Translations under genes and position numbers: made by a program
Part shown: positions 2,630 to 51,538 of the stretch, piece after piece
How positions within the stretch are numbered: position 1 is the stretch's first letter
How the letters are laid out: each line of letters starts with the position of its first letter
DNA from: a virus
DNA length: 58,047 nucleotides
Direction: 5' to 3' (one strand)
IMG/VR virus record: IMGVR_UViG_3300034071_002803
Span: 1 to 58,047 of that record
Notes under the pieces: model-generated
Told to the model about the DNA's origin: nothing
Databases searched by the model: none
What the model saw: the letters and a program-made list of their open reading frames with translations, nothing else

Positions 2630-2747
2630 GAAGCGGGATTCCGATCGCTACATCTTTTCTGCCAGGTCTGGCGAAGAGCCAGTTAGCTGGAAGTGGAGCA
2701 TTATCGGCGCGATCATTGCTGGCGCGCTGGCAATGCTATTCCTGTGA
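2619..2747 (+). CDS. small single-pass membrane protein, 42 aa
   Basis: The ATG at 2619 lies inside the end of the preceding gene (11-base overlap). The charged N-terminal half (MALKKRDSDRYIF...) leads into one hydrophobic helix, WSIIGAIIAGALAMLFL. Its TGA (2745-2747) overlaps the probable GTG start of the methyltransferase (2744), which suggests coupled translation. The function is unknown; a short membrane anchor or a translated leader are both possible. Confidence 0.55.
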   Translation: MALKKRDSDRYIFSARSGEEPVSWKWSIIGAIIAGALAMLFL

Positions 2748-3934
2748 GGCACGCCTCATTTTTTAGCGGCGTCGGCGGACTGGACATTGGTTTTACCCGC
2801 GCAGGGATGACCACGGTAAGCTTTAGCGAAATTGAGCCATATGCCTCTCAAATACTTACAGAACGATTCCCAGAGATACCAAACATTGGAGATATCACCA
2901 AGCTAGACGGGAAGGAGATACCTGATGCGGAAATCTGGACGGGGGGATTCCCCTGCCAAGACCTCAGCCTCGCAGGAAAGCGAGCCGGTTTTGATGGCGA
3001 AAGAAGTGTCCTCGCTTTTTCATTCCTCAACCTTGTGGAGCGACGTAAGCCTCGGTGGCTGGTGCTGGAAAACGTCCTTGGGCTCTTCTCTTCCTCTGGC
3101 GGTCGCGACTTCGGAAGGCTCCTCCGTGAAATGGATGAACTCGGGTACTCTGTTGCGTGGAGAACTTTCGATGCAAGATACTTCGGAGTCGCCCAACGAC
3201 GCCGTCGAGTGTTCATTGTCGCAAGTCTTATCGAAGAAGGCCCCGCAAAGGTTCTCTTTGAGTGCGAAGGCGAGTGCGGGCATCTTGGAACGAGCACGCA
3301 AGCGCGGAAAGAACCTGCCGGAGAGCCTGAAAGCCTCGCTCGAGAGTGGGAGCTTTTCAACCCGCCGTTTGACCCCGACAGAATGCGAAGTTCTTATGGG
3401 ATGGCCGAAGGGCTGGACAATCAGCAACTGGTGGAAGGCAAGACCGCGCAAGCGGAAGACCCACAACGGGTAGGGAATTTTGAGCTGTACGACTTTCCTG
3501 AAGACTCTGTCGCCCCAGCGCTAGCTTCTTCAAGGGCAAGAGACCAGATTGCGTACAGCATTCGAGAGGATGCCAAGGCAAACAACTTTTCGGCAAATGA
3601 AATTAAAGTTGCCAATGCCCTTCAAGCTCTTTGGCCAGGCGAGCAGTCACATCATGCCCAGACATTTATTGTTGGGTCTTCCTACGACGGATACAACCAA
3701 AAGCTTGACCCAGACGGACCACATCGAACCTTGAGGATTGGACGCGACTCTACAGACTTTGTTGTTGCAGAGGGCGGCGTATCTGACGACCCCCTGCTGC
3801 CAGAGGGGCTTGATATGCATCGGTACCGGGTGTGCGGAAACGGGATCGCTGCCCCAGTGGCAGAGTGGATTGCCAGGCGCATTATCGCCATAGATGCCCT
3901 CCAGGAAGCCCCAGGAGCCAAGGTAGGGCTTTAG
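2744..3934 (+). CDS. DNA (cytosine-5) methyltransferase
   Basis: The likely start is GTG 2744, coupled to the previous stop, because motif I (FFSGVGGLDIGF, residues 6-17) belongs at the very N-terminus; the frame is open 51 bases upstream. Motif IV has GGFPCQDLS with catalytic Cys71, motif VI is ENV (109-111), motif VIII is QRRRR (151-155), and motif X is CGNGIAAPVAEWIARRI near residues 364-380. The enzyme transfers a methyl group from SAM to C5 of cytosine. The usual motif IX (RRLTPxECxRLxGxPxxWT) is absent from this frame, and a version of it lies in an overlapping frame at 3363-3419. With the TET dioxygenase at 8383 it probably supplies 5-methylcytosine for further modification. Confidence 0.93.
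   Translation: MRHASFFSGVGGLDIGFTRAGMTTVSFSEIEPYASQILTERFPEIPNIGDITKLDGKEIPDAEIWTGGFPCQDLSLAGKRAGFDGERSVLAFSFLNLVERRKPRWLVLENVLGLFSSSGGRDFGRLLREMDELGYSVAWRTFDARYFGVAQRRRRVFIVASLIEEGPAKVLFECEGECGHLGTSTQARKEPAGEPESLAREWELFNPPFDPDRMRSSYGMAEGLDNQQLVEGKTAQAEDPQRVGNFELYDFPEDSVAPALASSRARDQIAYSIREDAKANNFSANEIKVANALQALWPGEQSHHAQTFIVGSSYDGYNQKLDPDGPHRTLRIGRDSTDFVVAEGGVSDDPLLPEGLDMHRYRVCGNGIAAPVAEWIARRIIAIDALQEAPGAKVGL
2925..3473 (+). CDS. possible overlapping gene in the +1 frame of the methyltransferase
   Basis: This 182-codon frame lies wholly inside the methyltransferase gene. From memory, similar translations (SLSQVL..., FSLSAKASAGILERARKRGK) are often annotated in phages beside C5-methyltransferases, but that may only mirror conservation of the methyltransferase DNA. 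Residues 147-165 read RRLTPTECEVLMGWPKGWT, which looks like the motif IX block missing from the main frame. There is no clear ribosome-binding site at ATG 2925; ATG 2994 is an alternative start. It could be a true overlapping gene, a frameshift product, or a shadow. Confidence 0.4.
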   Translation: MRKSGRGDSPAKTSASQESEPVLMAKEVSSLFHSSTLWSDVSLGGWCWKTSLGSSLPLAVATSEGSSVKWMNSGTLLRGELSMQDTSESPNDAVECSLSQVLSKKAPQRFSLSAKASAGILERARKRGKNLPESLKASLESGSFSTRRLTPTECEVLMGWPKGWTISNWWKARPRKRKTHNG

Positions 3935-3935
3935 G

Positions 3936-4127
3936 GTGGCAAAGTACCAGCCAGACCAGGAAGGGCCGTCAAAACGCCGCAAAACCCCATTGCTGGGCAT
4001 TTGTAACTACTGCGGTGCACCCAAGCAGGTATATGAGCAGGAAGACGAGTACAAGGTTATCTTTAGGGCATGCCTAGAGTGCATTAGGGACATTGCAAAC
4101 GGGTATCGACCTAGCGAACCGTCTTGA
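3936..4127 (+). CDS. zinc-ribbon protein, 63 aa
   Basis: A GTG start directly follows the methyltransferase stop. Two CxxC pairs (CNYCG at residues 23-27 and CLEC about 20 residues later) make a four-cysteine zinc ribbon. The N-terminus is basic. It is the last gene of the rightward unit and overlaps the convergent nucleotidyltransferase gene by 17 bases. It may bind nucleic acid or a protein partner; no specific role is visible. Confidence 0.65.
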   Translation: MAKYQPDQEGPSKRRKTPLLGICNYCGAPKQVYEQEDEYKVIFRACLECIRDIANGYRPSEPS

Positions 4128-4722
4128 TTGACTCCCAGTCGCCAGCGTCCTGCCAGCCCCCAATGTAGAGGTCCCGAAGCTGGTGAATCTTATGGTACTG
4201 CGTTAGCACATCAACCATTGGGATCTCTGGTGAGAATCTTTCTGGGGAAATCTTATCGATTGCATGCCGCAGTGCATCAACATCAGTAAACTGATATAAC
4301 CCCATACAGACTGGCACACGCGGCTTGCCGCGAATCCATCCTCCAGCTGCTGGATAATCCCACTGCCGGTTGATTGGCATATTTGAAACGCCAACCCAAT
4401 CACCGACATCCATCACTGGTCCCTTAAGCAGGCTATCGGCAAAAGAAACAAGCAGTGTGCCGGTGTGCGTTGTCTTTGAAAGATAGTGCCGAAGTGCAGA
4501 GGCTGGGCCGCCGCCACCGTCGTATCCGTAAATCTCTGACCCCTCCCATTCGTTTGACGCAAGTGTCTCAACATCCTTGCTTAGGACGACCGCATCAAGG
4601 GGTACTTCAAGCCAGGCATCTGTATGCCACTTATGGACTGGCTTGTCTTTTGCCCACACAAGCATTTTGCAAATACCATCAAGCCTGGTTGACTTGCCAG
4701 CGGAAAGAACAACGACTCTCAT
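4111..4722 (-). CDS. sugar-nucleotidyltransferase-like protein
   Basis: The N-terminus VVVLSAGKSTRLDGICKML carries the LxxGxSTRL phosphate-binding signature of GT-A-fold nucleotidyltransferases (the RmlA, GlmU and MobA superfamily), followed by a plausible Lys (K19). Such enzymes join a sugar 1-phosphate or similar substrate to an NTP to give an NDP-sugar. At 203 residues it is short and lacks an acyltransferase domain. It overlaps the upstream glycosyltransferase by ATGA. In context it may activate the sugar used by the nearby glycosyltransferases; the exact substrate cannot be read from the sequence. Confidence 0.75.
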   Translation of the reverse strand: MRVVVLSAGKSTRLDGICKMLVWAKDKPVHKWHTDAWLEVPLDAVVLSKDVETLASNEWEGSEIYGYDGGGGPASALRHYLSKTTHTGTLLVSFADSLLKGPVMDVGDWVGVSNMPINRQWDYPAAGGWIRGKPRVPVCMGLYQFTDVDALRHAIDKISPERFSPEIPMVDVLTQYHKIHQLRDLYIGGWQDAGDWESIKTVR

Positions 4723-5396
4723 GATCCCTTAAGCTTTTTTGCGATTGCCGTAACTTGGTCTGGGTTAATCGGCTGCAAGAATTTCTTCTCAGCGATATTG
4801 TCTCGATATTCTTGCTCGATCTTTCTTACCATCTCTTTTGTTACAAGATATCCATAAGACTGGTGGCTTTCATGTATCCAGTTTGGAGAGAGTCGATATT
4901 CCCATGTAACCTCTGGTATGCAAACAAATGTTGCACCGGCAGCAACAGCCCTACACCAGAATGTCCAGTCATATCCATACTCTGTGCCAAACTTTCCAAT
5001 TTTGTCAAATAGGCTTTTTCTAACAAGCGCATTGTGGCTGATGTTGTTGTTCTCAAAAAGCTTGTCTGGGCTGAATGGAACGTTGTACCAGCCAGAGTAA
5101 TTCTCGCCCTTGGCATACGAGTAGACGACATCAACGCCGTCAACCGCCTCCTTCAGAAGTCGCTCAATATGGTGCGGCATAAGGATGTCGTCGTCATCAA
5201 GGATTTGCACCCACTCGGTTTGCACCATATCAATCAGGCCGTTCTTTATGAACGCTCCGCCCTTTCGATTCGTGTCAATGCCAATGTAGTGCTCGGCAAC
5301 TGGGGATGTTTGGGCTTCGACGCAGGCAATAGCCTCAAGCAAGAGGTGCTGCCGGTCTGGGACGGTTGCGGTGATAACGCTAACCGCGCTGCTCAT
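4719..5396 (-). CDS. family 2 glycosyltransferase
   Basis: The GT-A signature is clear: a first strand VSVITATVPDR, then VQILDDDDILMPHHIERLL, where D67-D70 would bind metal and the NDP-sugar. A C-terminal region with DWTFWCRAV and later aromatic residues fits the acceptor side of family 2 enzymes. There are no membrane helices, so it is cytosolic. It overlaps the nucleotidyltransferase by four bases (ATGA) and follows the thioredoxin gene by one base, so the three are probably one transcript. The acceptor could be modified DNA, a protein or another sugar. Confidence 0.85.
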   Translation of the reverse strand: MSSAVSVITATVPDRQHLLLEAIACVEAQTSPVAEHYIGIDTNRKGGAFIKNGLIDMVQTEWVQILDDDDILMPHHIERLLKEAVDGVDVVYSYAKGENYSGWYNVPFSPDKLFENNNISHNALVRKSLFDKIGKFGTEYGYDWTFWCRAVAAGATFVCIPEVTWEYRLSPNWIHESHQSYGYLVTKEMVRKIEQEYRDNIAEKKFLQPINPDQVTAIAKKLKGS

Positions 5397-5397
5397 A

Positions 5398-5700
5398 TTA
5401 CAGGCCGAACTTTGTGATTAGCTCTTCGGCAAACAAGACCCCAGTTGTCGACTTTGGGGACTCGCCAGCCTTAATCACGACAAGTGTCGGGACGCTCTTG
5501 ATTTCAAATTCCCTGACCGCGTTTGGGTTTTTGTCTACATTCACTTTTACAATTTGTAGATTTGGCTTCATTGATGAAAGTCGCTCAAGCTCTGCGCTAA
5601 TCGCTCTGCATGGATGGCACCACGGTGCCCAGAAATCAATAATGGTGTCGCCCTTTGCGATAATGCTTGAAAGCGATTCTGTGCCGAGCTCAAAAATCAT
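5398..5700 (-). CDS. thioredoxin
   Basis: The start is ATG 5700, preceded by AGGAGA; the frame is open 23 codons further upstream without a better site. The 100-residue product has the active site DFWAPWCHPCRAIS (CHPC), the cis-proline segment VPTLVV and a typical thioredoxin length. It reduces disulfides; phage thioredoxins can also serve as polymerase processivity factors or reductants for metabolic enzymes. It sits in the sugar and base-modification operon, where it might keep oxygenases or other enzymes reduced, which is inference. A second thioredoxin-like gene lies at 50338. Confidence 0.92.
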   Translation of the reverse strand: MIFELGTESLSSIIAKGDTIIDFWAPWCHPCRAISAELERLSSMKPNLQIVKVNVDKNPNAVREFEIKSVPTLVVIKAGESPKSTTGVLFAEELITKFGL

Positions 5701-5770
5701 TTGGCGTCTCCTGATGTGGTGTTGGGGGGTTTCTATTATAACAAAATCCCCGCAGCTAGCAAGTGCCATG

Positions 5771-6124
5771 TTATTTGCGGAAGAGCACTTGGTGCTCTAG
5801 GTTCGCCTCGACGCCATACGCTTCAAAAATCTGTATTGCTTGAGCTTCAGTCATATCTGCAGAATCAGTGCTTCCATACCAAGATGTCTTTAGTGTTCCG
5901 CCAGTAGGGTATCCATCTCGACCTATGTGCAACTCTGCCCAGATGTTAGGGCCGTTAAGCGCAAAGTACACATGCACAACGCGCTTTGGCTCAACAGAAA
6001 GGCACTCAAGAAATTCCTGGCTTTCCTTTTCGTTTTTTTCTTGCCACTCAGCACATTCCGCTACTGTCTTTTCAAGGATATTAAGAGCATCGCCCTCATT
6101 AATTTCGTTCACAGTATTTTTCAT
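5771..6124 (-). CDS. hypothetical protein, 117 aa
   Basis: The ATG start overlaps the stop of the upstream gene (ATGA at 6121-6124) and GAGGAAG lies ahead of it. An acidic helical N-terminus (EWQEKNEKESQEF) is followed by a mixed alpha/beta part, VVHVYFALNGPNIWAELHIG. No motif tied to a function was found. It is tightly coupled to the neighbouring small acidic protein, so the two probably act together. Confidence 0.7.
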   Translation of the reverse strand: MKNTVNEINEGDALNILEKTVAECAEWQEKNEKESQEFLECLSVEPKRVVHVYFALNGPNIWAELHIGRDGYPTGGTLKTSWYGSTDSADMTEAQAIQIFEAYGVEANLEHQVLFRK

Positions 6125-6444
6125 GACTTCCTCAAGCTGTGGATGAAGATTGGGTTTTTAATTTCGCCGCTGCGAAGCGATCCGAGGATATTATACGAAA
6201 ACCACTCAAGGGCGTCCTGCCAGTGGTCGCAGGTGTCCTCGCAGGATTCCTCTTCGCAATTTAGCTTAAAGTTTTCTTGCAAGCCAGCAACACATTCGTC
6301 TCTGTCGTACACCGCAATGCTGTGGCTGATGTTTACGTCAAATACCTCACCGATTCCAACAAGGGCGTGTTCAATCTCGGGAAGGAAAATTACATCGTCG
6401 CCAACGACAAGCTGGTCGCCGTCTTCCATATCAAATACCGGCAC
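6121..6444 (-). CDS. hypothetical acidic protein, 107 aa
   Basis: GTG 6444 follows TAGGAGGG, a strong ribosome-binding site. The protein is acidic and has three clustered cysteines (LNCEEESCEDTCDHW), followed by an aromatic helix, DALEWFSYNILGSL. No family was recognised. It overlaps the next gene by ATGA. The cysteine cluster could bind a metal, but the spacing is not a standard zinc finger. Confidence 0.7.
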   Translation of the reverse strand: MPVFDMEDGDQLVVGDDVIFLPEIEHALVGIGEVFDVNISHSIAVYDRDECVAGLQENFKLNCEEESCEDTCDHWQDALEWFSYNILGSLRSGEIKNPIFIHSLRKS

Positions 6445-6452
6445 AAGCCCTC

Positions 6453-6848
6453 CTAAAACTCACCGCACGCCAGCGGAAGCTTTGAAATTGTTACATCCCA
6501 TGCCGACTCAACTGCGGCAACTCCATCTATGGTATCAGCAATCCAGAGCGTGTGGGACTCTACGATGTCCCTTGCCTGTTGGCCGCATGGGCTTTTGGGG
6601 ACGCGGGAAGCCTCGTCTTTTACCCATTGTATCTTTTGATCTAATGCTTTACGCCAAACAAGGTCTGGCTCCCAATTCACACTAGCTTCTCCAATCCACA
6701 TGCTCTCATGCCAGAAGAAGACTTCTGCCCGCAAGGCCGTAAGCCTATCCGTAAATCGTGACGAATCCGTACCGGGCGCAACAGACCCCTGAAAGATTAC
6801 GACAAGGGTGAATGCGTATGACAGGAGTAAGACATCAAATCCGCGCAT
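6453..6848 (-). CDS. hypothetical exported or membrane-anchored protein, 131 aa
   Basis: I chose ATG 6848, two bases after the deacetylase stop; the frame is open 22 codons upstream. The N-terminus MRGFDVLLLSYAFTLVVIFQ is one hydrophobic helix, so the protein is likely membrane-anchored or exported. The rest is helical and Trp-rich (WHESMWIGEASVNWEPD) with two cysteines that could form a disulfide. The function is unknown. A membrane protein inside a sugar-modification operon is slightly unexpected. Confidence 0.65.
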   Translation of the reverse strand: MRGFDVLLLSYAFTLVVIFQGSVAPGTDSSRFTDRLTALRAEVFFWHESMWIGEASVNWEPDLVWRKALDQKIQWVKDEASRVPKSPCGQQARDIVESHTLWIADTIDGVAAVESAWDVTISKLPLACGEF

Positions 6849-6850
6849 GG

Positions 6851-7429
6851 CTAAAAGCTGAACCTTGCAAGCTGGTATGCCTCTGCCCTGCCGTATCCGC
6901 ATCGATACCCCCACCAGGTGTCCTTCGCCAGCAGATGCTCTTTGGTGAAGTACTGGTTGTGCAACTGGCTCTTATGGCACCCCAGCGCCTTTGCCCTGGC
7001 GGCAACCAAATCCGGGGTTAGGTCAAGGTATGTATTTGGGTTGAATCCGTGCAGCGTGGACGGGGTGGCGTAGTAAGCAAGCGACGTATGTCGCCGCCTC
7101 AAAGCAGATAGGGTCGCTTCAGATACGGATCGGTGGTCCTGGTGGGTATCTTCTGGGTGTGGGGCGAGCACAAGGTCGTATTCAGACGAGAGCTCCGTAA
7201 TATCGTCAATAAGCTGACTATCGATCTGAACTGAGCCGTCCTTACGGTGCAGGAACTGTATGTTGGCATTAATGGTCTTGGCTGAAGCTTGTGCTTCCTT
7301 TGCTCTATCGCTAGAGCTTGTTCCAGTCACGATGACGATCTCAACGCTTTCTGCATGCACGCTGGACAGCAGACCCCAGCAGCCGTATTCCACATCATCT
7401 GGGTGAGGACCGATTGCGAGGATCTTCAT
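6851..7429 (-). CDS. PIG-L/LmbE family deacetylase
   Basis: The start at 7429 is preceded by AGGAGT. Residues 8-12 are PHPDD and residues 96-99 are HQDH, the zinc-binding and catalytic motifs of PIG-L/LmbE N-acetylglucosamine deacetylases. The length (192 aa) fits a single domain. Family members remove N-acetyl groups from GlcNAc on small molecules, lipids or nucleotide sugars. PIG-L genes have been reported in TET-phage modification clusters. Here it could expose an amine on a DNA-linked or nucleotide-linked aminosugar, with the GlcNAc-transferase-like gene at 46023 as a possible partner. Confidence 0.92.
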   Translation of the reverse strand: MKILAIGPHPDDVEYGCWGLLSSVHAESVEIVIVTGTSSSDRAKEAQASAKTINANIQFLHRKDGSVQIDSQLIDDITELSSEYDLVLAPHPEDTHQDHRSVSEATLSALRRRHTSLAYYATPSTLHGFNPNTYLDLTPDLVAARAKALGCHKSQLHNQYFTKEHLLAKDTWWGYRCGYGRAEAYQLARFSF

Positions 7430-7469
7430 TCCCGATACTCCTGTATAGACCCACTGTTTGTGGGGTTTA

Positions 7470-7504
7470 GGTAGTTTTACGGTGACGGAAAACTACCGTT
7501 TTTT
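7470..7504 (+). terminator. rightward-facing terminator within a leftward operon
   Basis: GGTAGTTTT (7470-7478) pairs perfectly with AAAACTACC (7489-7497), and a T-run follows on the plus strand. All flanking genes run leftward, so it would stop antisense transcripts. It lies in the 190-base gap 7430-7619. Confidence 0.5.
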
Positions 7505-7619
7505 AAAAATTTTTTCCAAGCTTTGCACGAGCAGAGCTGACAGGCGGCCCGCCTAACCCTGACAACTTGATCAATTATAACTTTGCTATCAGTCAAACTC
7601 CACAAAGCCTATGGTTATT

Positions 7620-8393
7620 CTAGCTTGATGTTCTTTTATCTTTTAGTCTTACTTCTGGTGTGCCCCTGCTTGGGGATACATGATATGTAACAAATTCTGG
7701 GTATTTCTCCAAAAGGTACTTTACGCCCTCGGAAAGTGTTTCTTCAGTTCTAAATTCCTGCATTCCGCCCGGCTCACCAATATACTTAGTGTCAACCGCG
7801 ATGTACTCTAGCCTTAGAACGCCACCGTCCCTAAGATAAAATTTAATAGATTTTTCATAATCATCTTTGTCGTTTGTTCCAATTAGCTCACACTCGTCGT
7901 GCCTTATTATTACGCCGTACATGGTTCCTATAATAAAAGACAGGTCGACACGAATCTTTGGCTTCATAAAATATGGATTCATAACTGGGTAAATTCCCCA
8001 CAGGTTAAAGCCCAGGGTTTCCAGAGCAGAAAATGATTCAACAAATAGATCTGGAAGGCTTGGTACATCTTCAAGTGTTTTCTCGTCAATCATTTTAACT
8101 ACCCTAGTCAAATCGTCGTCGCAGAAAACAACTCTTGAGCCGACCGGGTATGCCCTAGCCAGGTAATTCCTGAAACCCATTGCCCCGGGCTTTGCTTCAT
8201 ACTTTATAAGCTGTCCGTAGGTTTCAGCATCAAGTGACTCAAGGTATTCTTGGTGCTGGTCTTCCCCGCGAACATGAACATGAATCTTTTCTGGCGGAAC
8301 TCCGCCCCTAATAAGTGTCGGGATTGTTTTGTTTTTTATGGTATCTGGTCTTCCGTATGACGGTATGGCAACCACATAATCGCTACTGTTCAT
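7620..8393 (-). CDS. TET-associated glycosyltransferase (TAGT)-like protein
   Basis: The start is ATG 8393 with AAAGGAG just upstream; it overlaps the end of the TET gene by 11 bases. The first strand VVAIPSYGRPDTIKNKTIP and the metal-binding VVFCDDDL (D92-D94) mark a GT-A-fold glycosyltransferase of the type named for its link to TET/JBP genes. Family members transfer a sugar to the hydroxymethyl group of 5-hydroxymethylcytosine in DNA. Direct overlap with the dioxygenase gene strongly supports that role. The sugar donor cannot be read from the sequence. Confidence 0.82.
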   Translation of the reverse strand: MNSSDYVVAIPSYGRPDTIKNKTIPTLIRGGVPPEKIHVHVRGEDQHQEYLESLDAETYGQLIKYEAKPGAMGFRNYLARAYPVGSRVVFCDDDLTRVVKMIDEKTLEDVPSLPDLFVESFSALETLGFNLWGIYPVMNPYFMKPKIRVDLSFIIGTMYGVIIRHDECELIGTNDKDDYEKSIKFYLRDGGVLRLEYIAVDTKYIGEPGGMQEFRTEETLSEGVKYLLEKYPEFVTYHVSPSRGTPEVRLKDKRTSS

Positions 8394-9288
8394 TTTTCTT
8401 GCTCCTTTCAATAAGCTCTGCAGCACTAGTCGCGGCAAGAATATCGTCTCTCATGCCCTTTTCTCTTGATGTGCGCTTTCTTCCCGCCCTCCTCTGCTCC
8501 ACGGCGTGCGTAAAGCAGTCTTTCATTCCCCGCAATGCATAGTAGACAATGCTGCAGCGATACCCATCTTCTTTTGTTACGGTCATTGGAGTTACTCCGT
8601 GAACAAGCTTAAGTCCGCAAAAAAATGCAGCGTATCCATCTCTGCAAGCTAATGTAATCCCGTATTCTGGTATGTGGAGATGGCCGCCATCAACTCCCTC
8701 GCGAACAACCGGCATTGCGGCCCATGTATCAAAATTAAACCCATCTCGATGGTAGGGAAGTTGCGCAGTCCAGTTGACCACGCCGCTAGTCCAAATTGAT
8801 TCTTCGGTCAGCTTCCAGTCCTTATCAACCTGCTGCATTGTTTCGTAATTTTCAGCATATATATGCGGGGCAAATTCGCTAAGCATCTCCCCCATCTCCA
8901 TAGAGACTTGGGCGAGCGCCGCATTTTGCATCGGAGACTCGGAGGCAAGAGATGTTGGCTTGCAGGCATCCCTAAGCTGTATGGGCTTCCTGGGTGCCAT
9001 TCCGAAGGTTCTGGATTGGGTCGTAAGCCCGGTTCCTTTGCGCGCCACCCCGCCAAACGGAACATCTATGGTTGTAACTGCCCACCTCAAAAGCTCAGTA
9101 GTTTTTGTAGGCAGCTTAAGATGGGCGACAATTGGCTCACCAGTCTCAGCATCAAAAATAATTTCGCTTTTGTTTACATTTGGCTTAATGTTATTGACTT
9201 CGGTTCCAACAAGCACATCCGCCTCTTCTGGCGTTATGAGCCTCTTAGCCGCGCTTACTGTAACTTCGCCAAACGAGTATCTAGCCAT
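8383..9288 (-). CDS. TET/JBP-family 2-oxoglutarate dioxygenase
   Basis: The iron-binding core is complete: HRD (H180, D182) in LPYHRDGFNFD, distal His230 in LKLVHGVTPM, and Arg244 (YRCSIVYYALRG) for 2-oxoglutarate. The segment HLHIPEYGITLACRDGYAAF matches the TET/JBP double-stranded beta-helix. Such enzymes oxidise 5-methylcytosine or thymine in DNA, and phage members hydroxylate 5-methylcytosine. The start overlaps the ParB-like stop by one base (TAATG) and the stop overlaps the TAGT start, giving a ParB-TET-TAGT cassette. The N-terminal 170 residues have no recognised motif and may be a DNA-binding region. Confidence 0.9.
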   Translation of the reverse strand: MARYSFGEVTVSAAKRLITPEEADVLVGTEVNNIKPNVNKSEIIFDAETGEPIVAHLKLPTKTTELLRWAVTTIDVPFGGVARKGTGLTTQSRTFGMAPRKPIQLRDACKPTSLASESPMQNAALAQVSMEMGEMLSEFAPHIYAENYETMQQVDKDWKLTEESIWTSGVVNWTAQLPYHRDGFNFDTWAAMPVVREGVDGGHLHIPEYGITLACRDGYAAFFCGLKLVHGVTPMTVTKEDGYRCSIVYYALRGMKDCFTHAVEQRRAGRKRTSREKGMRDDILAATSAAELIERSKKNEQ

Positions 9289-9965
9289 TATTCTTGCTCT
9301 GGTGCCTTTTCTCCAGTCGCGTCCTCAATAAGCTTCAAGATGGCCTGGGCGTTGCTTTCAAGCTTGTGCTTCTTTCGGTATTCACCAAGCTTTTCTTGTA
9401 CCCAGGCATAAACAGCGTTCTGGTACTCAAGTGCCACAAGGCGCGTCAACTTTGAGCTGTACTTCTCTGCCAGCTCTGCAAGGCTAGGCATTGAGCCAGT
9501 GCCAGATGCCTTTTCGGAGATTTCTTTTGCAATCTTTTCAACGTCCTTGTTAAGCAAGCGCTCAAGGTCATCAAGATCGGAGAAATTAAAACCCGTGGAC
9601 TCAAGGATTGAGTCGTCAAGGGAATTAAGAGCGTCGTAAAGAACCTTTTCGTTCCAGCTTGAAAGGTCACCTGCACGGTTATCTGCAATTGCGTAAGCTC
9701 TTGCCCGGTCAAGATCGTCAAACGGAAGCTCATGAACCGCAATTTCGCTCCAGCCAATAGACTTTGCTGCCTCAAGCGTGCCGTTACCAGCGACAACGAC
9801 CCCACTTCTGGTCACAACAAGCGGCCTTTGCTGACCAAACTCTTTAAGCGAGGCAGCGATTGCCTGGATATTCTTCTCGTTGTGCTTGCGTGGGTTTTCG
9901 GTATCGTAAGTTAGATCGTCAACGCTAACGATTTTTACTTCAAACTTATTTGACTTGCCTGCCAT
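9288..9965 (-). CDS. ParB-like N-terminal domain protein
   Basis: ATG 9965 follows TAGGAGG. Residues 20-90 hold the ParB/sulfiredoxin-type fold: NPRKHNEKNIQAIAASLKEF, then the PLVV and VVAGNGTLEAAKSIG motifs and a conserved HELP. The C-terminal half is helical and charged. ParB-like domains recur beside TET/JBP genes in phages and may target the modification machinery or act as an NTP-dependent clamp or nuclease. It is translationally coupled to the TET gene by a one-base overlap. No centromere-type partner (ParA) is present, so plasmid-style partition is unlikely. Confidence 0.85.
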   Translation of the reverse strand: MAGKSNKFEVKIVSVDDLTYDTENPRKHNEKNIQAIAASLKEFGQQRPLVVTRSGVVVAGNGTLEAAKSIGWSEIAVHELPFDDLDRARAYAIADNRAGDLSSWNEKVLYDALNSLDDSILESTGFNFSDLDDLERLLNKDVEKIAKEISEKASGTGSMPSLAELAEKYSSKLTRLVALEYQNAVYAWVQEKLGEYRKKHKLESNAQAILKLIEDATGEKAPEQE

Positions 9966-9973
9966 AAATCCTC

Positions 9974-11074
9974 CTATATAATTCTTTTGGCTTTCGCCAT
10001 TGCTGAAGCTATTACCTGGTCCATATCATAATACCTGTACTCGCCAAGTCTACCACCAAGAACAAGTCGAAGCTCGGACTCGGCCCGCTCTTTGTATTTT
10101 GCGTACTTTTGGTGGTTTTTATCGTCTGCTATCGGGTAGTAAGCAGTTTTTCCAGGCTCCCAGGTGTCTGGGTATTCTCTGGTAATTACTGTTTTTGACA
10201 CATTTGCATAACTGTTAATATCAAAGTGCTTGTGCTCAGTAATTCTTGTCCAGGGAATATCAATTGAAGGGTAATTTACGACCGCATTACCTTGGAAATC
10301 TGGCGTGTCGAGCACTTCGTGTTCAAATTTAAGACCTCGGTACTCAAGTGGGCCGTACTCTTCAAACCTGAATAGCTCGTCAACACCTCCGCTAAAGACA
10401 ATTTGCTTGCCTTTCATTCTCCAGTAATCAAGATCTGCCCCAAAATCAGACTTAAGCTGAATATTCAAGCCCTCTGACATATTTTCTATCCACTTTGTAT
10501 ATCCACCAATAGGAATACCTTGATATTTACTATGGAAATAGTTGTCATCAAAGGTAAATCTGATTGGCAGGCGCGAAACGACAGTGTGGTCTATCTGGCT
10601 TGGAGACCTACCCCACTGTTTTGTGGTGTAGCCGTAGAAGAATTTTTCGTAAATAGTTTTTCCAACAGTTGAAAGAAGGTATTCCTCAACAGTTTTAGGC
10701 TTTTCAATCTTAACAATGTCTGCAGCAAGCGCATTTCTAGCTTCTAGGGGTGTTTTTGCCCTAAAAAGCTGGTACATGGTCATTAGATTAATTGGAAAAG
10801 AGTAAATTTCTTCCCCAAACCGTATTTTGGGTCTATTTACAAAATTATTAAAGCTTGCAAATCGATTGGCATAGGCCCATATGTCCTCACTGTTGGTGTG
10901 GAAGATATGCGGGCCGTGTACATGCACCTGGATTCCTTCAATCTCGTCAGAAATGATATTTCCGCCAATTCTGTCTCTTTTTTCTATTATCAGGCAGGTT
11001 TTTCCCGCGTCTGTTACCGTTCTGGCGAATGTAACGCCAAAAAGCCCAGCGCCAACAACTACAAAGTCATACAT
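9974..11074 (-). CDS. glf: UDP-galactopyranose mutase
   Basis: The FAD-binding start (FVVVGAGLFGVTFAR, GxGxxG at residues 8-13) is followed by IEKRDRIGGNI and HVHGPHIFHT, a flavin-stacking signature. FFYGYTTKQWG, the RLPIR block and YANVSKTVITREY are characteristic of the family, and 366 residues is the normal bacterial length. The enzyme converts UDP-galactopyranose to UDP-galactofuranose. With the GalE gene at 44745 it gives a two-step route from UDP-glucose. In a phage this suggests galactofuranose on DNA, virion proteins or the host envelope. It overlaps the upstream glycosyltransferase by 8 bases. Confidence 0.95.
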   Translation of the reverse strand: MYDFVVVGAGLFGVTFARTVTDAGKTCLIIEKRDRIGGNIISDEIEGIQVHVHGPHIFHTNSEDIWAYANRFASFNNFVNRPKIRFGEEIYSFPINLMTMYQLFRAKTPLEARNALAADIVKIEKPKTVEEYLLSTVGKTIYEKFFYGYTTKQWGRSPSQIDHTVVSRLPIRFTFDDNYFHSKYQGIPIGGYTKWIENMSEGLNIQLKSDFGADLDYWRMKGKQIVFSGGVDELFRFEEYGPLEYRGLKFEHEVLDTPDFQGNAVVNYPSIDIPWTRITEHKHFDINSYANVSKTVITREYPDTWEPGKTAYYPIADDKNHQKYAKYKERAESELRLVLGGRLGEYRYYDMDQVIASAMAKAKRII

Positions 11075-11870
11075 TAGATCTCTCCCTAAGATTTACTATT
11101 GCATTTTGCAACTTCTCAACAGTTAAAACCTCATATTGTCTCATTGCCATCCACCATGTTCCGCCAGGAAGCTTGCCGTCCATATATTTTTGGACATAGA
11201 ACTTCCTTTCCTTATACGGGCTTTCAAACTCGGTTGCCAAAGCATCCTTTTGGCTTCCCTGGACTCTTGTGTGCTCTGCCGGCGAGGCATCTATGCACCC
11301 GATTCTTCCACCATGAATAGACCTTCCCTCTTTATGGTGGTATTTCTGTTGCCACCATTCTGGTATTCCCCAGCCATGCCCGTAAGGGGAATCATTGAAT
11401 ATCGGAAGGGACGCCTTGAACGCCCTGCTGGTCATCAGGAACGCACCAACATCAATCGTATTAAGCGTTCTAAATATGCCTCCCTTTTTTCTCCTAAACT
11501 TGCTATCTCCGGGCTCCATTACAAACCCAGGGCAAGCAAGATCAAAATCAAAATAATCAAATGTCTCAATAAACTTAAGTATGTTTTCCCTGCTCATATA
11601 TATGTCGTCATCCATAATCAAAAATCTTTTATACTGGTTAATTGTTGATTTATACTTTTTAAAAAAATCCCTTATTAGATGAAACTTGTTACCTTTTTGC
11701 TTTAATATATATTTAGCAGACTTCCAGAATTTATCAGAATAATCCTTTTCGCCCCAAAAACAAATTCCAACATCAATGCCATCTTCTGGCCTGAAGAGCT
11801 CCATTCGCTCGTGTTCGGACCAATACTCTTTTCCAGATCCAGTAACTATTAAAAGAAGTGTTTTATCCAT
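11067..11870 (-). CDS. glycosyltransferase-like protein (GT-A fold)
   Basis: The pattern KRFLIMDDDIYMSRENI (D87-D89) and the later IDVGAFLMTSRAFK with YGHGWGIPEWW resemble GT-A glycosyltransferases of the DUF707 type. There are no membrane segments. It sits between another glycosyltransferase and the UDP-galactopyranose mutase, with three- and minus-eight-base junctions, so a role in transferring galactofuranose or a related sugar is an attractive inference. The ribosome-binding site is weak, which suggests translational coupling. Confidence 0.75.
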   Translation of the reverse strand: MDKTLLLIVTGSGKEYWSEHERMELFRPEDGIDVGICFWGEKDYSDKFWKSAKYILKQKGNKFHLIRDFFKKYKSTINQYKRFLIMDDDIYMSRENILKFIETFDYFDFDLACPGFVMEPGDSKFRRKKGGIFRTLNTIDVGAFLMTSRAFKASLPIFNDSPYGHGWGIPEWWQQKYHHKEGRSIHGGRIGCIDASPAEHTRVQGSQKDALATEFESPYKERKFYVQKYMDGKLPGGTWWMAMRQYEVLTVEKLQNAIVNLRERSNV

Positions 11871-11873
11871 AAT

Positions 11874-12827
11874 TTATTTGAATATATCCTTGCTTGGGTT
11901 AAAGCCTGTTTCTTTAATATACTTCACTCGCCATTCTCTTTGCTTTTCGTTGGATATAGTGAAATCTAAACTTGCAAGGTAATCTGCGTCAAGCCATTTT
12001 GCGGGCTTGAACAAGCCGGGGTATTTTCTCACAAGCTTTTCGCATGCTTCGTTTCTTTGCTCTGTTCTTTTTGTTTTGCCCTCAGCCTGCAAGCCACCAG
12101 GCATCTCGCCATATAGCGGCGCATCAAGAAGTAGCCATTGGTTGGTAAGCACTTTTCCATATACAAGCATGCATTTTGCCCAAAGGTCAACATCGTCCAG
12201 CTCGATGCTGTCATCAAGGGATATTCTTCGATCTTTTTTTATCAGCTGAAATGCTATCGGGTGCCTGCCCCAGTGCCACTTTGATTTCTCCCACCCCTTG
12301 ATCAGGTAAGGGTTTATTCCGTTGATCCAGTCCTCATCAGTCTCAAGCGTTGAGACAGCTGCCATTGAGTTAATCCCACAATATCCAATTTTTTCTTGAT
12401 CGCAGATAGAAATCATTTCCATTATCATTTTCTTGCCATCTTCGCTGTCTGGAGTGTGCGACCATAGATCACCGTATTCTTTTCTTCGTTTAATTTTTGG
12501 AAGGGTTGTTTTTGTCCAGTAGTGCTCTGGAACTACCGACCTAAATGTAACAATGTCGTCATCCAGGAAGAGCGCCCACTCCCCATCCTCAAGGGTTTCA
12601 TATATAAAATTCTGCTGTCTGACTTTTCCATTTCCTGGCCAGCCAGCCCTTACGCCAGAGACAATAATCTTAGCATTTGCCTTTATGGCTGCGTCCCTAT
12701 AAAGGTTTGCCTCATCTTCACTATGCAGCACAAGGAATTTTTCAAATCCCTGAATGCCCGGCGCATTAAGGGTAAAGCAAAACTCAGATCTTGCGTATGA
12801 AAAAATGAAAACCTTGGGCAAATTCAT
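11874..12827 (-). CDS. glycosyltransferase, TAGT-like GT-A fold
   Basis: The first strand KVFIFSYARSEF and the metal-binding WALFLDDDIVTF (D89-D91) indicate a GT-A glycosyltransferase whose layout resembles the TAGT at 7620 more than typical family 2 enzymes. GDLWSHTP and LDDSIELDDVDLWAKC may shape the acceptor pocket. The start codon sits at the loop edge of a perfect 10-bp hairpin (12812-12836) and lacks a visible ribosome-binding site, so expression may be limited. It is the first gene of the sugar operon after SSB. The acceptor is unknown. Confidence 0.78.
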   Translation of the reverse strand: MNLPKVFIFSYARSEFCFTLNAPGIQGFEKFLVLHSEDEANLYRDAAIKANAKIIVSGVRAGWPGNGKVRQQNFIYETLEDGEWALFLDDDIVTFRSVVPEHYWTKTTLPKIKRRKEYGDLWSHTPDSEDGKKMIMEMISICDQEKIGYCGINSMAAVSTLETDEDWINGINPYLIKGWEKSKWHWGRHPIAFQLIKKDRRISLDDSIELDDVDLWAKCMLVYGKVLTNQWLLLDAPLYGEMPGGLQAEGKTKRTEQRNEACEKLVRKYPGLFKPAKWLDADYLASLDFTISNEKQREWRVKYIKETGFNPSKDIFK

Positions 12828-12836
12828 TGCCCAAGG
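12800..12836 (-). terminator. hairpin plus T-run over the start of a glycosyltransferase gene
   Basis: CCTTGGGCAA (12812-12821) pairs perfectly with TTGCCCAAGG (12827-12836). Read leftward, the stem is followed by TTTTCATTTTTT, the form of an intrinsic terminator for the SSB transcript. It also buries the ATG (12825-12827) of the next gene, so it could act as an attenuator. Confidence 0.6.
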
Positions 12837-12861
12837 TTATCACATTAAATCTAACTAATCG

Positions 12862-13320
12862 TTAAAATGGCAAGTCTTCAAAGCCCTCTTCTTCTCGCTG
12901 GGACTTTGCCTTACTGCCATACGAAGAGTCCTTACCGTAGCCTCCGCCACTGCTGTAAGAAGAGCCTCGGGACTGACCGCCAGCCGCCTTTTTCTCAAGC
13001 CCAGCCTTACCCCGCGATAGGAGCTGAAGAAACTTTGCCGTTACCTGAATATCTGTTCGCTCCTTGCCATTGCGGTCACTCCATGTGTTTAGCTCTGGGG
13101 TGCCCTCGATATACACAAGGTCTCCGGCGTTTAGGAGATCTGCGGCAAGGTCGGCTCGACCATCCCAGCATGTAATTGGAAACCACTGGGTATCTTCGTT
13201 TCCATCCTTATCCTTGCCCTTGTTAATCGCAACGCTAAAGTTTGTAACATTGCGACCGTTCTTGGTGGCTCGGGTCTCTGGCTGCTTGCCAACACGTCCA
13301 ATCAATTGAAGCTTAATCAT
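12862..13320 (-). CDS. ssb: single-stranded DNA-binding protein
   Basis: The OB-fold N-terminus (KLQLIGRVGKQPETR, then WFPITCWDGRA and GDLVYIEGTPEL) spans residues 1-105. A Gly/Ser-rich linker follows, ending in the acidic tip EEEGFEDLPF, which matches the DDDIPF-type partner-binding tail of bacterial SSBs. GAGGAG precedes ATG 13320. It coats single-stranded DNA in replication and recombination and recruits partners through its tail. It sits downstream of RusA and the replication genes, with an 8-base overlap. Confidence 0.95.
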   Translation of the reverse strand: MIKLQLIGRVGKQPETRATKNGRNVTNFSVAINKGKDKDGNEDTQWFPITCWDGRADLAADLLNAGDLVYIEGTPELNTWSDRNGKERTDIQVTAKFLQLLSRGKAGLEKKAAGGQSRGSSYSSGGGYGKDSSYGSKAKSQREEEGFEDLPF

Positions 13321-43017: not shown

Positions 43018-43716
43018 ATGGAGATTTTTGTACTAGCCGTTCTTTTTGGCTCTCTTTGGTTTAGCCAGTGGTTTTTTAGGAAGTTTTGGTTTCATCGGCA
43101 ATCTCTTGACATTGATGAAATAAAAAGACTTCCGGCTGATATTGTTTGCTCTCCAGTTGACGGGGTAATTGTTTACAAGAAAAGGGTTGATAACGGTCAA
43201 GCTTTTTCAATCAAGCTGAATAAACAGATTGGAGAGCCCTGGACTGGTGGCCAGAGCGGCTGGCTCATTGGGATATACATGAGTGTTTTTGACCGTCATT
43301 TTGTCATTGCGCCAACATCTGGCACAAACACTTCTCTTTACTTTAAAACCGACAAAAACTTGCCAATGATGGATCTTTTTGAGTATGTGCGGTTTTATGC
43401 ACTATCAATTACAAGCAAAAGAATGGCTGAAAACGCAGAGGAATATGTTGACAACAATGAACGCCTAAAGCTGGATTGGAGCTCTGGGATTAAAATGCTT
43501 GTAATAGGTGATGCTAATGTTAACAAGATTGACCAGGAGCCTGGCCTAGGTGACGGGGGAAGCATTTGGGCACGAGGGGACAAGCTTCTCTTTATTCGCC
43601 GTGGCAGCCAATGCGATATATTTATCCCAGACAGCGTCGGATCACCGATTAAATCAATTGCGGTTGGCAGAAAGGTAAAAGCTGGAACGCCAATTGCCGC
43701 AGGATGGAGGGGATAA
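43018..43716 (+). CDS. phosphatidylserine-decarboxylase-like protein
   Basis: An N-terminal hydrophobic helix (1-22) anchors the protein. SPVDGVIVY (45-53) and SVFDRHFVIAPTSGT (89-103) match the SPADG and LxxxDYHRxHxPxxG motifs of phosphatidylserine decarboxylases. Near the C-terminus IRRGSQCDIFIP (G196, S197) stands where the self-cleaving Gly-Ser-Thr triad that makes the pyruvoyl cofactor is expected, but with Gln in third place. The family decarboxylates phosphatidylserine to phosphatidylethanolamine. Whether it acts on lipid here or on another amino-acid conjugate is unknown. Confidence 0.75.
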   Translation: MEIFVLAVLFGSLWFSQWFFRKFWFHRQSLDIDEIKRLPADIVCSPVDGVIVYKKRVDNGQAFSIKLNKQIGEPWTGGQSGWLIGIYMSVFDRHFVIAPTSGTNTSLYFKTDKNLPMMDLFEYVRFYALSITSKRMAENAEEYVDNNERLKLDWSSGIKMLVIGDANVNKIDQEPGLGDGGSIWARGDKLLFIRRGSQCDIFIPDSVGSPIKSIAVGRKVKAGTPIAAGWRG

Positions 43717-43862
43717 TGTTTAACTTGCTATTTGTGCTATTTTTTGTTTTGGGGTTTTTGCTTAGATTTGAGAGTGGAAAAATTATTTCTGTCGCGGCTG
43801 GGCTTTGCCTTGGAGTAATTGCCAATGAGATTTATAAGTTTATTGTATGGGCAATAAGATGA
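43716..43862 (+). CDS. small two-helix membrane protein, 48 aa
   Basis: The ATG overlaps the previous stop (TAATG) and its TGA overlaps the next start (ATGA). The peptide has two hydrophobic helices (FNLLFVLFFVLGFLL and ISVAAGLCLGVIA) with a short charged loop. The double coupling strongly suggests translation. It may assist the membrane-anchored decarboxylase-like protein; the function is unknown. Confidence 0.7.
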   Translation: MFNLLFVLFFVLGFLLRFESGKIISVAAGLCLGVIANEIYKFIVWAIR

Positions 43863-44752
43863 AGTCTGCGGCAATACTATCGGCAGGCTCGCCTGGCTCC
43901 ATTGCGGTAATCAAAGTATTAAAAGAATGCGGGTATAAGGTTCACGGGGTTGATATTGACCCAAGGACTCCGGCAAAAAATCTTGTTGACTCGTTTGAGC
44001 TTAAGTCAGATCTTGAGCTGCGTGGGATTGAATCGCTTCAAGGTTTTGACTTTGTCCTCTCCTCAACAATTGAAGAGTTTGAGCTAATCGAGCGATCTGG
44101 GGCAAGACATCTTCAGCCAGGGGCAAAGGTATATGAGTCGTGTAGGGATAAGCTTGCAACGGCTGGTATTGCCTCAATGCATGGAATTAATCACCCAGTA
44201 ACTAGCGCATCCTGGCCCGGAAACGGATATAGCGGATATGTTGTTAAGCCAAGATTTGGCAGGGGCTCAAAAGGTCTATACATATCCAAAAAGCCGGTTG
44301 GCGCATTTTCTCATTTTGCAGAGTCTAGCGAGCCAATGATTATTCAGGACTTTATTGAGGGAAGAGAGTTTAATGTTGACGGCATCGCGGAGGACGGCAA
44401 CGGTATTTCCTGGTTTTGCCACTATTCCGACCTTATGCGTGGCGGCATAACGACAAAAGCAGAAACATTTGAAAACAAAAACATTAACAGCCTAGTTAAA
44501 AGTATTTGCGAAAAGTTTAATCTGCACGGTCTTTTTAATATTGGCGGGATTCTTGACGACGGAGGAAAGCCTTGGCTTATAGAAATTAACCCAAGGCTTT
44601 CCCCTGGCATTGTAATTGGGCATCTTGCTGGGGCAAGGCCAGTCTCTGCCTGGGAAAGCTTTATTGCAAAATCCCCAATTTCGTCTTCAGACTACAAGGC
44701 AAAATCTGGGGTTGTGGTGAGCAGGTATTTTGAGGAAGCTGTTATTAAGTAA
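43859..44752 (+). CDS. ATP-grasp ligase
   Basis: ATG 43859 overlaps the previous stop by ATGA; an ATG 12 bases upstream is less likely. The N-terminal fold (AAILSAGSPGSIAVIKVLKE) precedes the ATP-grasp core: YVVKPRFGRGSKGL (glycine-rich loop), MIIQDFIEGREFNVDG, and WLIEINPRLSPG (metal-binding Glu and Asn). These enzymes activate a carboxylate with ATP and join it to an amine or similar nucleophile. Together with the PIG-L deacetylase it could acylate an aminosugar. The substrate is not known. Confidence 0.88.
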   Translation: MKSAAILSAGSPGSIAVIKVLKECGYKVHGVDIDPRTPAKNLVDSFELKSDLELRGIESLQGFDFVLSSTIEEFELIERSGARHLQPGAKVYESCRDKLATAGIASMHGINHPVTSASWPGNGYSGYVVKPRFGRGSKGLYISKKPVGAFSHFAESSEPMIIQDFIEGREFNVDGIAEDGNGISWFCHYSDLMRGGITTKAETFENKNINSLVKSICEKFNLHGLFNIGGILDDGGKPWLIEINPRLSPGIVIGHLAGARPVSAWESFIAKSPISSSDYKAKSGVVVSRYFEEAVIK

Positions 44753-45710
44753 TTGAATTAATAATCTTTTCAATTGTGCTATTTACTGGCTCCCATCCCA
44801 ATACCCTCTTTGCCAAAGAAACATCTGCCACCAGAGAGGCTGGATCTCCCTCTCTCCTATTCTTAATGACAATATTTATTAGCTCTGGGTCTCTAGCAAT
44901 TTGATTGCCAATCTCTTGGGCGGCGTCAAATACGCTGGTTCCGGTTCCGCTTCCAATGTTTATTGCAATAAATCCATCTGATTGGCTTGAATCAAAATAA
45001 TTAAGCGCCATCACATGTGCATCAGCTATGTCAGCAACATGAACGTAATCCCTAACGGCGCTTCCGTCTGGGGTATCGTAATCGTCTCCGAATACAAAAA
45101 ATTCCAAGCCGCTATCTGCAGAGCTAATCATTCTTGGAATAAGGTGGGTTTCGTTTTGGTGAAGCTCTTTTGAGACGCTAGTTGCTCCGGCTACATTAAA
45201 ATACCTAAAGGCAATTGCCTTTAAATCATTTGACACAGATGCTGCCGCGAGAAGCCCTTCAAAGGCTACTTTTGTTTCTCCGTATGGGTTAATTGGCAGC
45301 AACGGAAATTCTTCCTTGATCGGGCTTGTGTTTGGCTGGCCGTACACGGCAGCGCTAGAGGAAAAGATAAATTCCTTAATTCCGCTGTCAACCGATGCCC
45401 TTAAAAGCTCAATGCTGTCTGCAACATTTGATTTGTAATATTCAATTGGGTTTTCAACGCTATCTTTTACAAGGCTTTTTGCTGCACAGTGAACAATAGA
45501 ACTGATTCCTTCAGCCTCAATGATATTTTTAATAGCTTCATAGTCCCCATAAGAGACCGGATAAAAAGAACTTTCTGGCGCAACAAGTTCGGTAAATCCG
45601 CTAGTAAAATTATCAGCTATTACTACTTTGTGTCCCGCTTTTATTAGCGCTTCTGAAACAGCAGATCCTACATATCCAGCTCCGCCAGTAACCAAGATGG
45701 CCTTATTCAT
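44745..45710 (-). CDS. galE: UDP-glucose 4-epimerase-like protein
   Basis: The NAD-binding motif GGAGYVGSAVSEALIKAGHKV, the catalytic SSSAAVYGQP (Ser-Ser-Ser) and NPYGETK (YxxxK), and the RYFNVAGA segment are those of extended short-chain dehydrogenases of the GalE type. A C-terminal INIGSGTGTSVFD and DPASLVADVSLAKRVLGW complete the family pattern. It would interconvert UDP-glucose and UDP-galactose and so feed the UDP-galactopyranose mutase at 9974. It overlaps the ATP-grasp gene convergently and the small gene upstream by 8 bases. Confidence 0.9.
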   Translation of the reverse strand: MNKAILVTGGAGYVGSAVSEALIKAGHKVVIADNFTSGFTELVAPESSFYPVSYGDYEAIKNIIEAEGISSIVHCAAKSLVKDSVENPIEYYKSNVADSIELLRASVDSGIKEFIFSSSAAVYGQPNTSPIKEEFPLLPINPYGETKVAFEGLLAAASVSNDLKAIAFRYFNVAGATSVSKELHQNETHLIPRMISSADSGLEFFVFGDDYDTPDGSAVRDYVHVADIADAHVMALNYFDSSQSDGFIAINIGSGTGTSVFDAAQEIGNQIARDPELINIVIKNRREGDPASLVADVSLAKRVLGWEPVNSTIEKIINSIT

Positions 45711-45876
45711 TTTCAGAAGTTTTAATGTTTTCCCTTTTTGCCTTGTTAGACCTATTTTCTTCTATCTCTTTGGCAAGAAGCTCAATTCTTGCATTGGCAG
45801 CGTCAAGCTGTATGACAAGATATCCAATTTTTCTAAAAAGATCCTCAACCGTAATTTCTTGTGCCATGTTATTCAT
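45703..45876 (-). CDS. small helical protein, 57 aa (twin 2)
   Basis: The start overlaps the previous stop by ATGA and the stop overlaps GalE. After MAQEITVEDLFRKIGYLVIQ it forms a charged coiled coil (ARIELLAKEIEENRSNKAK). The N-terminus shares ITVExLxxKIG with the gene just upstream, so the two are probably duplicates that diverged. The function is unknown; a coiled-coil assembly role is possible. Confidence 0.6.
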   Translation of the reverse strand: MNNMAQEITVEDLFRKIGYLVIQLDAANARIELLAKEIEENRSNKAKRENIKTSENE

Positions 45877-46013
45877 TCCCCCTCAATAGTTGTTTCTGGC
45901 GCTGGTGGGTTTGGATCAGTAAATACTCCATCAACAAGGACCCACCCAATTTGAACTGGGTCTTCCAGCCCTATCTTTGCAAGCAACTGCTCTACCGTGA
46001 TCTGTCCGTCCAT
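45873..46013 (-). CDS. small protein, 46 aa (twin 1)
   Basis: AGGGAGGAG precedes ATG 46013. MDGQITVEQLLAKIGLEDPV, then a short beta-type and Pro-rich tail. The N-terminal ITVEQLLAKIG matches the next gene. It is short, but the ribosome-binding site and the ATGA junction are good evidence of translation. Confidence 0.6.
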   Translation of the reverse strand: MDGQITVEQLLAKIGLEDPVQIGWVLVDGVFTDPNPPAPETTIEGE

Positions 46014-46022
46014 GGCTCCTCC

Positions 46023-47066: not shown

Positions 47067-47072
47067 CAATGG

Positions 47073-49331: not shown

Positions 49332-49539
49332 CCTTCCCCCATCTCCCCACGGGACATTCTGCTTGCGGCAATTGCGCCTTGAGCTTCATGAAGCATAGGC
49401 ACTTTTTGCATTGACCTGAAAGGCGGATAAAATGCTCGCACCCACGACAAGATTTAAGGCGTTCTTCTAGTGTCTCCTTGCTGACCCTGCCAGCATTTGG
49501 ATCTAGCATGTCCCAAGGCTTAACGCTCATTAGTGCCAT
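49303..49539 (-). CDS. zinc-ribbon protein, 78 aa
   Basis: CRGCEHFIRLSGQCKKCLCFMKLKAQLPQAECPVGRW has six cysteines in the spacing of a phage zinc-ribbon family (DUF6171-like). ATG 49539 has GGAG close by; ATG 49530 is an alternative. It overlaps both neighbours. The family is common in phages, without known function. Confidence 0.7.
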   Translation of the reverse strand: MALMSVKPWDMLDPNAGRVSKETLEERLKSCRGCEHFIRLSGQCKKCLCFMKLKAQLPQAECPVGRWGKDEHNPPAED

Positions 49540-51535: not shown

Positions 51536-51538
51536 TTA

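Follow-up and report, generated by a model that had tools for sequence, protein, structure and literature searches.

Introduction

Kinetoplastid JBPs hydroxylate thymine in DNA to 5-hydroxymethyluracil (5hmU). ADDT (amino-acid:DNA transferase) and 5hmU-DNA kinase are enzymes of thymidine hypermodification via 5hmU (PMC6449724), and a gene cluster of Rhodococcus phage Tonitrus has been described as a putative system of this kind (PMC11955845). Here we analyse an IMG/VR record of 58,047 bases from an uncultured phage; this whole stretch is called the window. On its minus strand a TET/JBP dioxygenase gene is found between a ParB-like gene and the gene of a TET-associated GT-A glycosyltransferase (TAGT). 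An earlier, sequence-only reading had proposed a cytosine pathway at this locus, in which a C5-cytosine DNA methyltransferase (C5-MTase) feeds the TET enzyme. With a probability of about two in three, we favour a post-replicative cassette for pyrimidine hypermodification, in which the base is most likely thymine and the glycan is base-J-like. The function class named earlier is right, and the named base is probably wrong. The ParB-TET hypermodification module itself is already known, and the locus is best read as a new, sugar-rich variant of it.

The TET dioxygenase, its ParB partner and TAGT1

The dioxygenase, its close neighbours and the C5-MTase are located as follows.

9288..9965, minus strand: ParB-like domain protein (PF02195, 3.5e-5; PHROG 620, 9.9e-35; PHROG 498, 6e-34)
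8383..9288, minus strand: TET/JBP 2-oxoglutarate (2OG)-Fe(II) dioxygenase (PF12851, E = 2.2e-8; ligands; fold match)
7620..8393, minus strand: TAGT1, a TET-associated GT-A glycosyltransferase and putative 5-hydroxymethyl-pyrimidine DNA glycosyltransferase (PF20691, E = 4.9e-9)
6851..7429, minus strand: PIG-L/BshB1-like N-acetyl sugar deacetylase (PF02585, E = 1e-17; HPDD motif intact)
2693..3934, plus strand: C5-MTase (PF00145, E = 2.4e-53)

The Pfam score of the TET protein, 33.9 bits, is slightly under the curated cut-off of 34.9. Its ligands had been read as intact, and indeed H180 and D182 of the HxD motif, H230 and the 2OG arginine R244 are invariant across 28-32 aligned relatives. The AlphaFold2 model, for which 27 relatives were used, has a mean pLDDT (predicted local distance difference test) of 84. 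Its best solved-structure matches in Foldseek are CcTET, NgTet1, human TET2 and CMD1 (E 1e-11 to 1e-14 for CcTET, NgTet1 and TET2), and its double-stranded beta-helix is closest to TET/JBP structures. Judged by the modelled fold and the ligands, beyond Pfam, the dioxygenase is a genuine TET/JBP enzyme. Public records label phage TETs as SNF2 DNA repair protein, DnaJ or queuine tRNA-ribosyltransferase (L005, L091, L092, L094, H1-H40).

The ParB-like gene lies ahead of TET, as had been noted, and overlaps it by 1 bp. PHROG 498 is the ParB domain of phage DNA methyltransferases, and the window domain is of the same type as the domain fused to these enzymes. This similarity hints at a general DNA-targeting role of the domain for base-modifying enzymes.

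TAGT1 lies above the curated cut-off of PF20691 (36.9 vs 27.5 bits) and also matches PHROG 842, the T-even glucosyl-hydroxymethylcytosine glucosyltransferase (6.9e-8). The longer open reading frame (ORF) at 7620-8438 gives 5.9e-9 for PF20691. The start is most likely the ATG at 8393, which stands behind AAAGGAG. The reported overlap of TAGT1 with TET is real, and with this start its extent is corrected to 11 bp.

The ParB-TET module in other phages

The comparison draws on TET relatives in IMG/VR, in isolate phages and on genome contigs. The window clade comprises 88 loci, whose TETs form 57 groups at 90% identity and are thus not copies of one phage. ParB is present at 86 of the 88 loci, mostly directly upstream of TET, and a single-strand binding protein (SSB) gene precedes ParB-TET in most IMG/VR relatives. 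The payload downstream varies: TAGT is found at 37/88 loci, ADDT at 23/88 and a P-loop kinase, which often accompanies ADDT, at 28/88 (assignments Pfam-confirmed for representative proteins). On a maximum-likelihood TET tree of 62 members and 4 outgroups, the payload type, sugar or amino acid, changes at least six times over 43 rows. With such repeated switches, TAGT and ADDT appear to act on the same TET product.

The same gene order had been proposed as a check in other phages, and for four of the genes it is recovered: TET, TAGT and PIG-L follow ParB in Arthrobacter phage Altadena and Mycobacterium phage Indlovu, which infect different hosts. ParB-TET-ADDT-kinase clusters with no methyltransferase nearby are observed in Corynebacterium sp. 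13CS0277 (L346) and in an Actinomycetota metagenome-assembled genome (L345), where they probably lie in prophages. In two other phage TET clades, P12024L-like and Cr30-like, ADDT is found at 23/82 and 53/84 loci and C5-MTase at 3/82 and 0/84.

The probable target base

The C5-MTase has a complete set of motifs, namely I (FSGVG), IV (GFPCQ), VI (ENV), VIII (QRRRR) and X (GNGI), the five that had been listed for it. The gene stands, while its earlier start at 2744 falls within a longer ORF beginning at 2693. It is alone on the plus strand and convergent with the last cassette gene, a minus-strand nucleotidyltransferase, and thus outside the transcription unit of the cassette. It is 4.4 kb from TET on the opposite strand and lacks the linkage of a cytosine cluster in which a TET acts on 5-methylcytosine (5mC). 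Among the 80 nearest relatives of this methyltransferase, with about 12 kb of context each on average, TET, TAGT and ADDT are found in 0/80. The C5-MTase is probably not part of the cassette; most likely it is an independent orphan methyltransferase adding ordinary 5mC.

The TET side gives a similar picture. By whole-genome search, C5-MTase is absent from four complete isolate genomes with ParB-TET (Tonitrus, Indlovu, Altadena and Terij). It occurs in 6/48 IMG/VR relatives, many of these records being fragments. The 7 MTase-bearing rows of the TET tree need 6 changes, so that the acquisitions are scattered. With relatives mostly devoid of it, this scatter and the 0/80, the claim that the C5-MTase feeds TET is unsupported. 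What is supported of the proposed pathway is the hypermodification cassette of TET and glycosyltransferase with its sugar-tailoring enzymes; the cytosine route fed by the C5-MTase is not. A cytosine pathway defined by gene linkage was tested from both the TET and the MTase side, again without support.

Thymine is suggested by the company of the enzyme. The TET clade of the window, also by its tree, includes ADDT and kinase clusters (ADDT at 23 and kinase at 28 of 88 loci). No hydroxymethylase of the thymidylate synthase family was found in 15 ParB-TET relatives or in the window, so the hydroxymethyl group probably comes from TET, the one visible source of it. The ADDT and 5hmU kinase families PF18724 and PF18751 are absent from the window.

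Several observations weigh against a thymine base, and some of them would speak for a pathway in which C5-MTase makes 5mC, TET oxidizes it to 5-hydroxymethylcytosine (5hmC), and TAGT and its partners glycosylate 5hmC. A complete, motif-bearing C5-MTase sits in the same phage, 4.4 kb from TET. Its frequency in the IMG/VR relatives, 6/48, is higher than the 1743/50,697 in phage records generally, the latter counted by another method. Residue 185 of TET, five past the HxD histidine, is Asn in 87/87 readable members of the ParB-TET clade, as in human TET2 (N1387), which is compatible with cytosine. Phage TETs paired with C5-MTases reportedly act on 5mC, in work attributed to Burke (2021) and Pyle (2024). 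An MTase-paired TET clade, sought as a positive control, was not recovered (L120 clade, 2/36; P12024L-like, 3/82; Cr30-like, 0/84). ADDT may also act on a cytosine derivative, thymine is deduced from gene association, and two of the sugar genes described below, for UDP-galactopyranose mutase (UGM) and an orphan glycosyltransferase, may serve virion glycosylation. Finally, the TAGT family includes a T-even enzyme that acts on glucosylated 5hmC (PMC13216743). Against the cytosine pathway stand the convergent position of the MTase outside the operon, the TET-TAGT-PIG-L triple in phages without any C5-MTase, the MTase gains scattered over the TET tree together with MTase relatives that have no TET, and alternative payloads that are thymidine enzymes. 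We consider this pathway distinctly unlikely.

A substrate call from residue 185 was considered and dropped: in the two other phage TET clades nearly every readable member has Asp at the equivalent position, and all three clades carry ADDT clusters, so that Asn or Asp is not diagnostic.

Some TET/JBP enzymes, such as NgTet1, act on both thymine and 5mC. A TET that takes both, with sugars on both bases, would fit the coexistence of a thymine-type cassette and a C5-MTase in the window phage. The MTase and TET are unassociated in either direction, which argues against it, and such a mixed substrate is very unlikely.

The sugar genes and the proposed glycan

The TET gene belongs to a nearly gap-free minus-strand gene run that extends from 13.3 to 4.1 kb. 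Its order is SSB, TAGT2, orphan glycosyltransferase, UGM, ParB-like, TET, TAGT1, PIG-L, three small genes, thioredoxin, a GT2 family glycosyltransferase and a MobA-like nucleotidyltransferase. The members not listed above are as follows.

12862..13320, minus strand: SSB (PF00436, 4.9e-25), at the upstream edge of the conserved neighbourhood SSB-ParB-TET
11874..12827, minus strand: TAGT2, second TAGT-family glycosyltransferase (PF20691, E = 0.0053)
11067..11870, minus strand: orphan putative GT-A glycosyltransferase with a DDD motif (PF00535 at E = 0.014 only)
9974..11074, minus strand: UGM (PF03275, 1.9e-70; TIGR00031)
5398..5769, minus strand: thioredoxin (PF00085, E = 5.2e-21)
4719..5396, minus strand: GT2 family glycosyltransferase (PF00535, E = 1.4e-6)
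4111..4722, minus strand: MobA-like nucleotidyltransferase (NTP_transf_3; PF12804, E = 7.5e-7), probably for nucleoside-diphosphate-sugar synthesis

Profile searches and motifs thus place all the genes named earlier at or near their former coordinates, and each of the nucleotidyltransferase, the further glycosyltransferases, UGM and PIG-L was found around TET by profile search. Adjacent genes share 1 bp (ParB/TET), 11 bp (TET/TAGT1, with the ATG at 8393) and 8 bp (orphan glycosyltransferase/UGM). No close or near-identical record of the first 25 kb of the window was found among 50,697 phage records, and Rfam and tRNA scans across the window gave no matches.

The PIG-L protein matches TIGR04001 at 1.3e-14, under the cut-off, and in the NCBIfam comparison it is closest to deacetylases of N-acetylglucosaminyl compounds. 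From this resemblance, TET, TAGT and PIG-L together would plausibly give a cationic amino-sugar base. UGM exceeds the NCBIfam equivalog cut-off (TIGR00031, 346 vs 303.75 bits); it is a true equivalog and points to a supply of UDP-galactofuranose. The adjoining orphan glycosyltransferase is a candidate galactofuranosyltransferase. No relatives of it were found in phage records or IMG/VR, and its fold model was discarded at a pLDDT of 31.

TAGT2 is under the curated PF20691 cut-off (17.2 vs 27.5 bits) and is related to TAGT1 (BLASTP, 5e-5). TAGT2-like genes lie immediately downstream of TET in three loci (L011, L025, L061). Another locus, L020, has two TAGT genes in tandem right after TET (10795-12461), an independent doubling. 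The family, whose T-even member acts on an already glucosylated base, can also transfer a second sugar onto the first (PMC13216743). At 12810-12838 on the minus strand of the window, a 12-bp hairpin with a T-rich tract after it encloses the TAGT2 start codon (z-score -5.5 vs shuffles). This element may act as an attenuator or as a switch that hides the start codon.

In a further explanation, TET and TAGT modify DNA, at either base, while UGM, the orphan glycosyltransferase, GT2, PIG-L and the nucleotidyltransferase build glycans of virion proteins or the host surface. Glycosylated mycobacteriophage virions are known, according to a citation in PMC12619734. A second sugar cluster is found at 43018-55376 of the window, with phosphatidylserine decarboxylase-like, ATP-grasp, NAD epimerase, N-acetylglucosamine glycosyltransferase (PF11397), thioredoxin and methyltransferase genes. 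It adjoins a tail gene with an Mtd_N domain and possibly serves virion glycosylation itself. The proximity of this 43-55 kb cluster to a tail gene favours the explanation, as does the finding that 0/10 UGM relatives in IMG/VR are near a TET. It is countered by PIG-L, which follows TET-TAGT in two other phages, and by the position of UGM, the orphan glycosyltransferase and TAGT2. These three sit between SSB and ParB, which adjoin in most relatives, and this suggests that they were inserted into the module. Also against it, in phage C48C1 (OQ984149; L093, 5908-9352) the genes of TET, a 344-aa protein and UGM overlap in one operon. This phage is unrelated to the window phage and has no C5-MTase in 156 kb; its 344-aa protein has no Pfam match and no similarity to the orphan glycosyltransferase or TAGT2. 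By its gene arrangement, the C48C1 operon ties UGM to a TET independently. On balance, a virion or host-surface role of these sugar genes is unlikely.

In the preferred thymine pathway, the ParB-like protein would help to load or guide the dioxygenase onto phage DNA. TET would then hydroxylate the thymine methyl group in DNA to 5hmU, a substrate suggested by gene association. Judged by their family, TAGT1 and perhaps TAGT2 would put a sugar on the hydroxymethyl group, giving a base-J-like nucleotide. PIG-L would remove the acetyl group from an N-acetylated sugar and leave a cationic amino sugar, and UGM would make UDP-galactofuranose, while the orphan glycosyltransferase beside it and GT2 would lengthen the glycan. 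Such a glycan on DNA would protect it against host nucleases. An amino sugar is probably part of the glycan, through PIG-L, and galactofuranose is perhaps another part, through UGM. The fullest version is tentative and possible rather than probable: a TET guided by ParB, together with two TAGTs, builds on thymine a composite glycan of deacetylated cationic amino sugar and galactofuranose, and ParB-TET is a common, swappable oxidation core that takes sugar or amino-acid payloads.

Implications

If the thymine pathway is true, phages of the window clade make hydroxymethyluracil by oxidizing thymine within DNA and not via a modified dNTP, and decorate that base with sugars, in parallel to the base J of trypanosomes but in bacterial viruses. 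The enzymes could then become tools to write or label thymine in DNA. Because TAGT and ADDT are exchanged while the ParB-TET core ahead of them stays constant, the question of the base becomes approachable in the isolates Altadena, Indlovu and Tonitrus. A caution also follows: a C5-MTase elsewhere in a TET-bearing phage genome is insufficient to name its pathway cytosine-specific.

Comparison with known systems

The phage 5mC-TET/TAGT clusters ascribed to Burke (2021) and Pyle (2024) are said to combine TET, TAGT-family glycosyltransferases and sugar-tailoring enzymes, like the window. In those clusters the C5-MTase is reportedly a linked functional partner, whereas in the window it is unlinked and phylogenetically dispensable. 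Genes 1-7 of Tonitrus, the closest cluster in an isolate, share with the window a ParB and a TET that is 50% identical to the window TET. The Tonitrus payload is different, being of amino-acid type with ADDT (aGPT-PPlase2) and a P-loop kinase, and its genome has no C5-MTase. Altadena and Indlovu show ParB, TET, TAGT and PIG-L in the order of the window, but their clusters are without UGM, a second TAGT and the orphan glycosyltransferase, the C5-MTase is again missing, and Indlovu has a P-loop kinase in addition. In the kinetoplastid base J system (JBP1/2 and a glucosyltransferase), a TET/JBP-family dioxygenase is likewise followed by glycosyl transfer in DNA, with thymine as the base that we propose for the window. 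Unlike base J, the window has a phage-type GT-A TAGT and a ParB partner, and also a deacetylase and UGM, which hint at a sugar of greater complexity. The glucosylated dihydroxypentyluracil of Bacillus phage SP-15 is also a sugar-bearing thymine derivative, as proposed here, but that base has a different side chain and is made before replication with a hydroxymethylase (PMC5977210).

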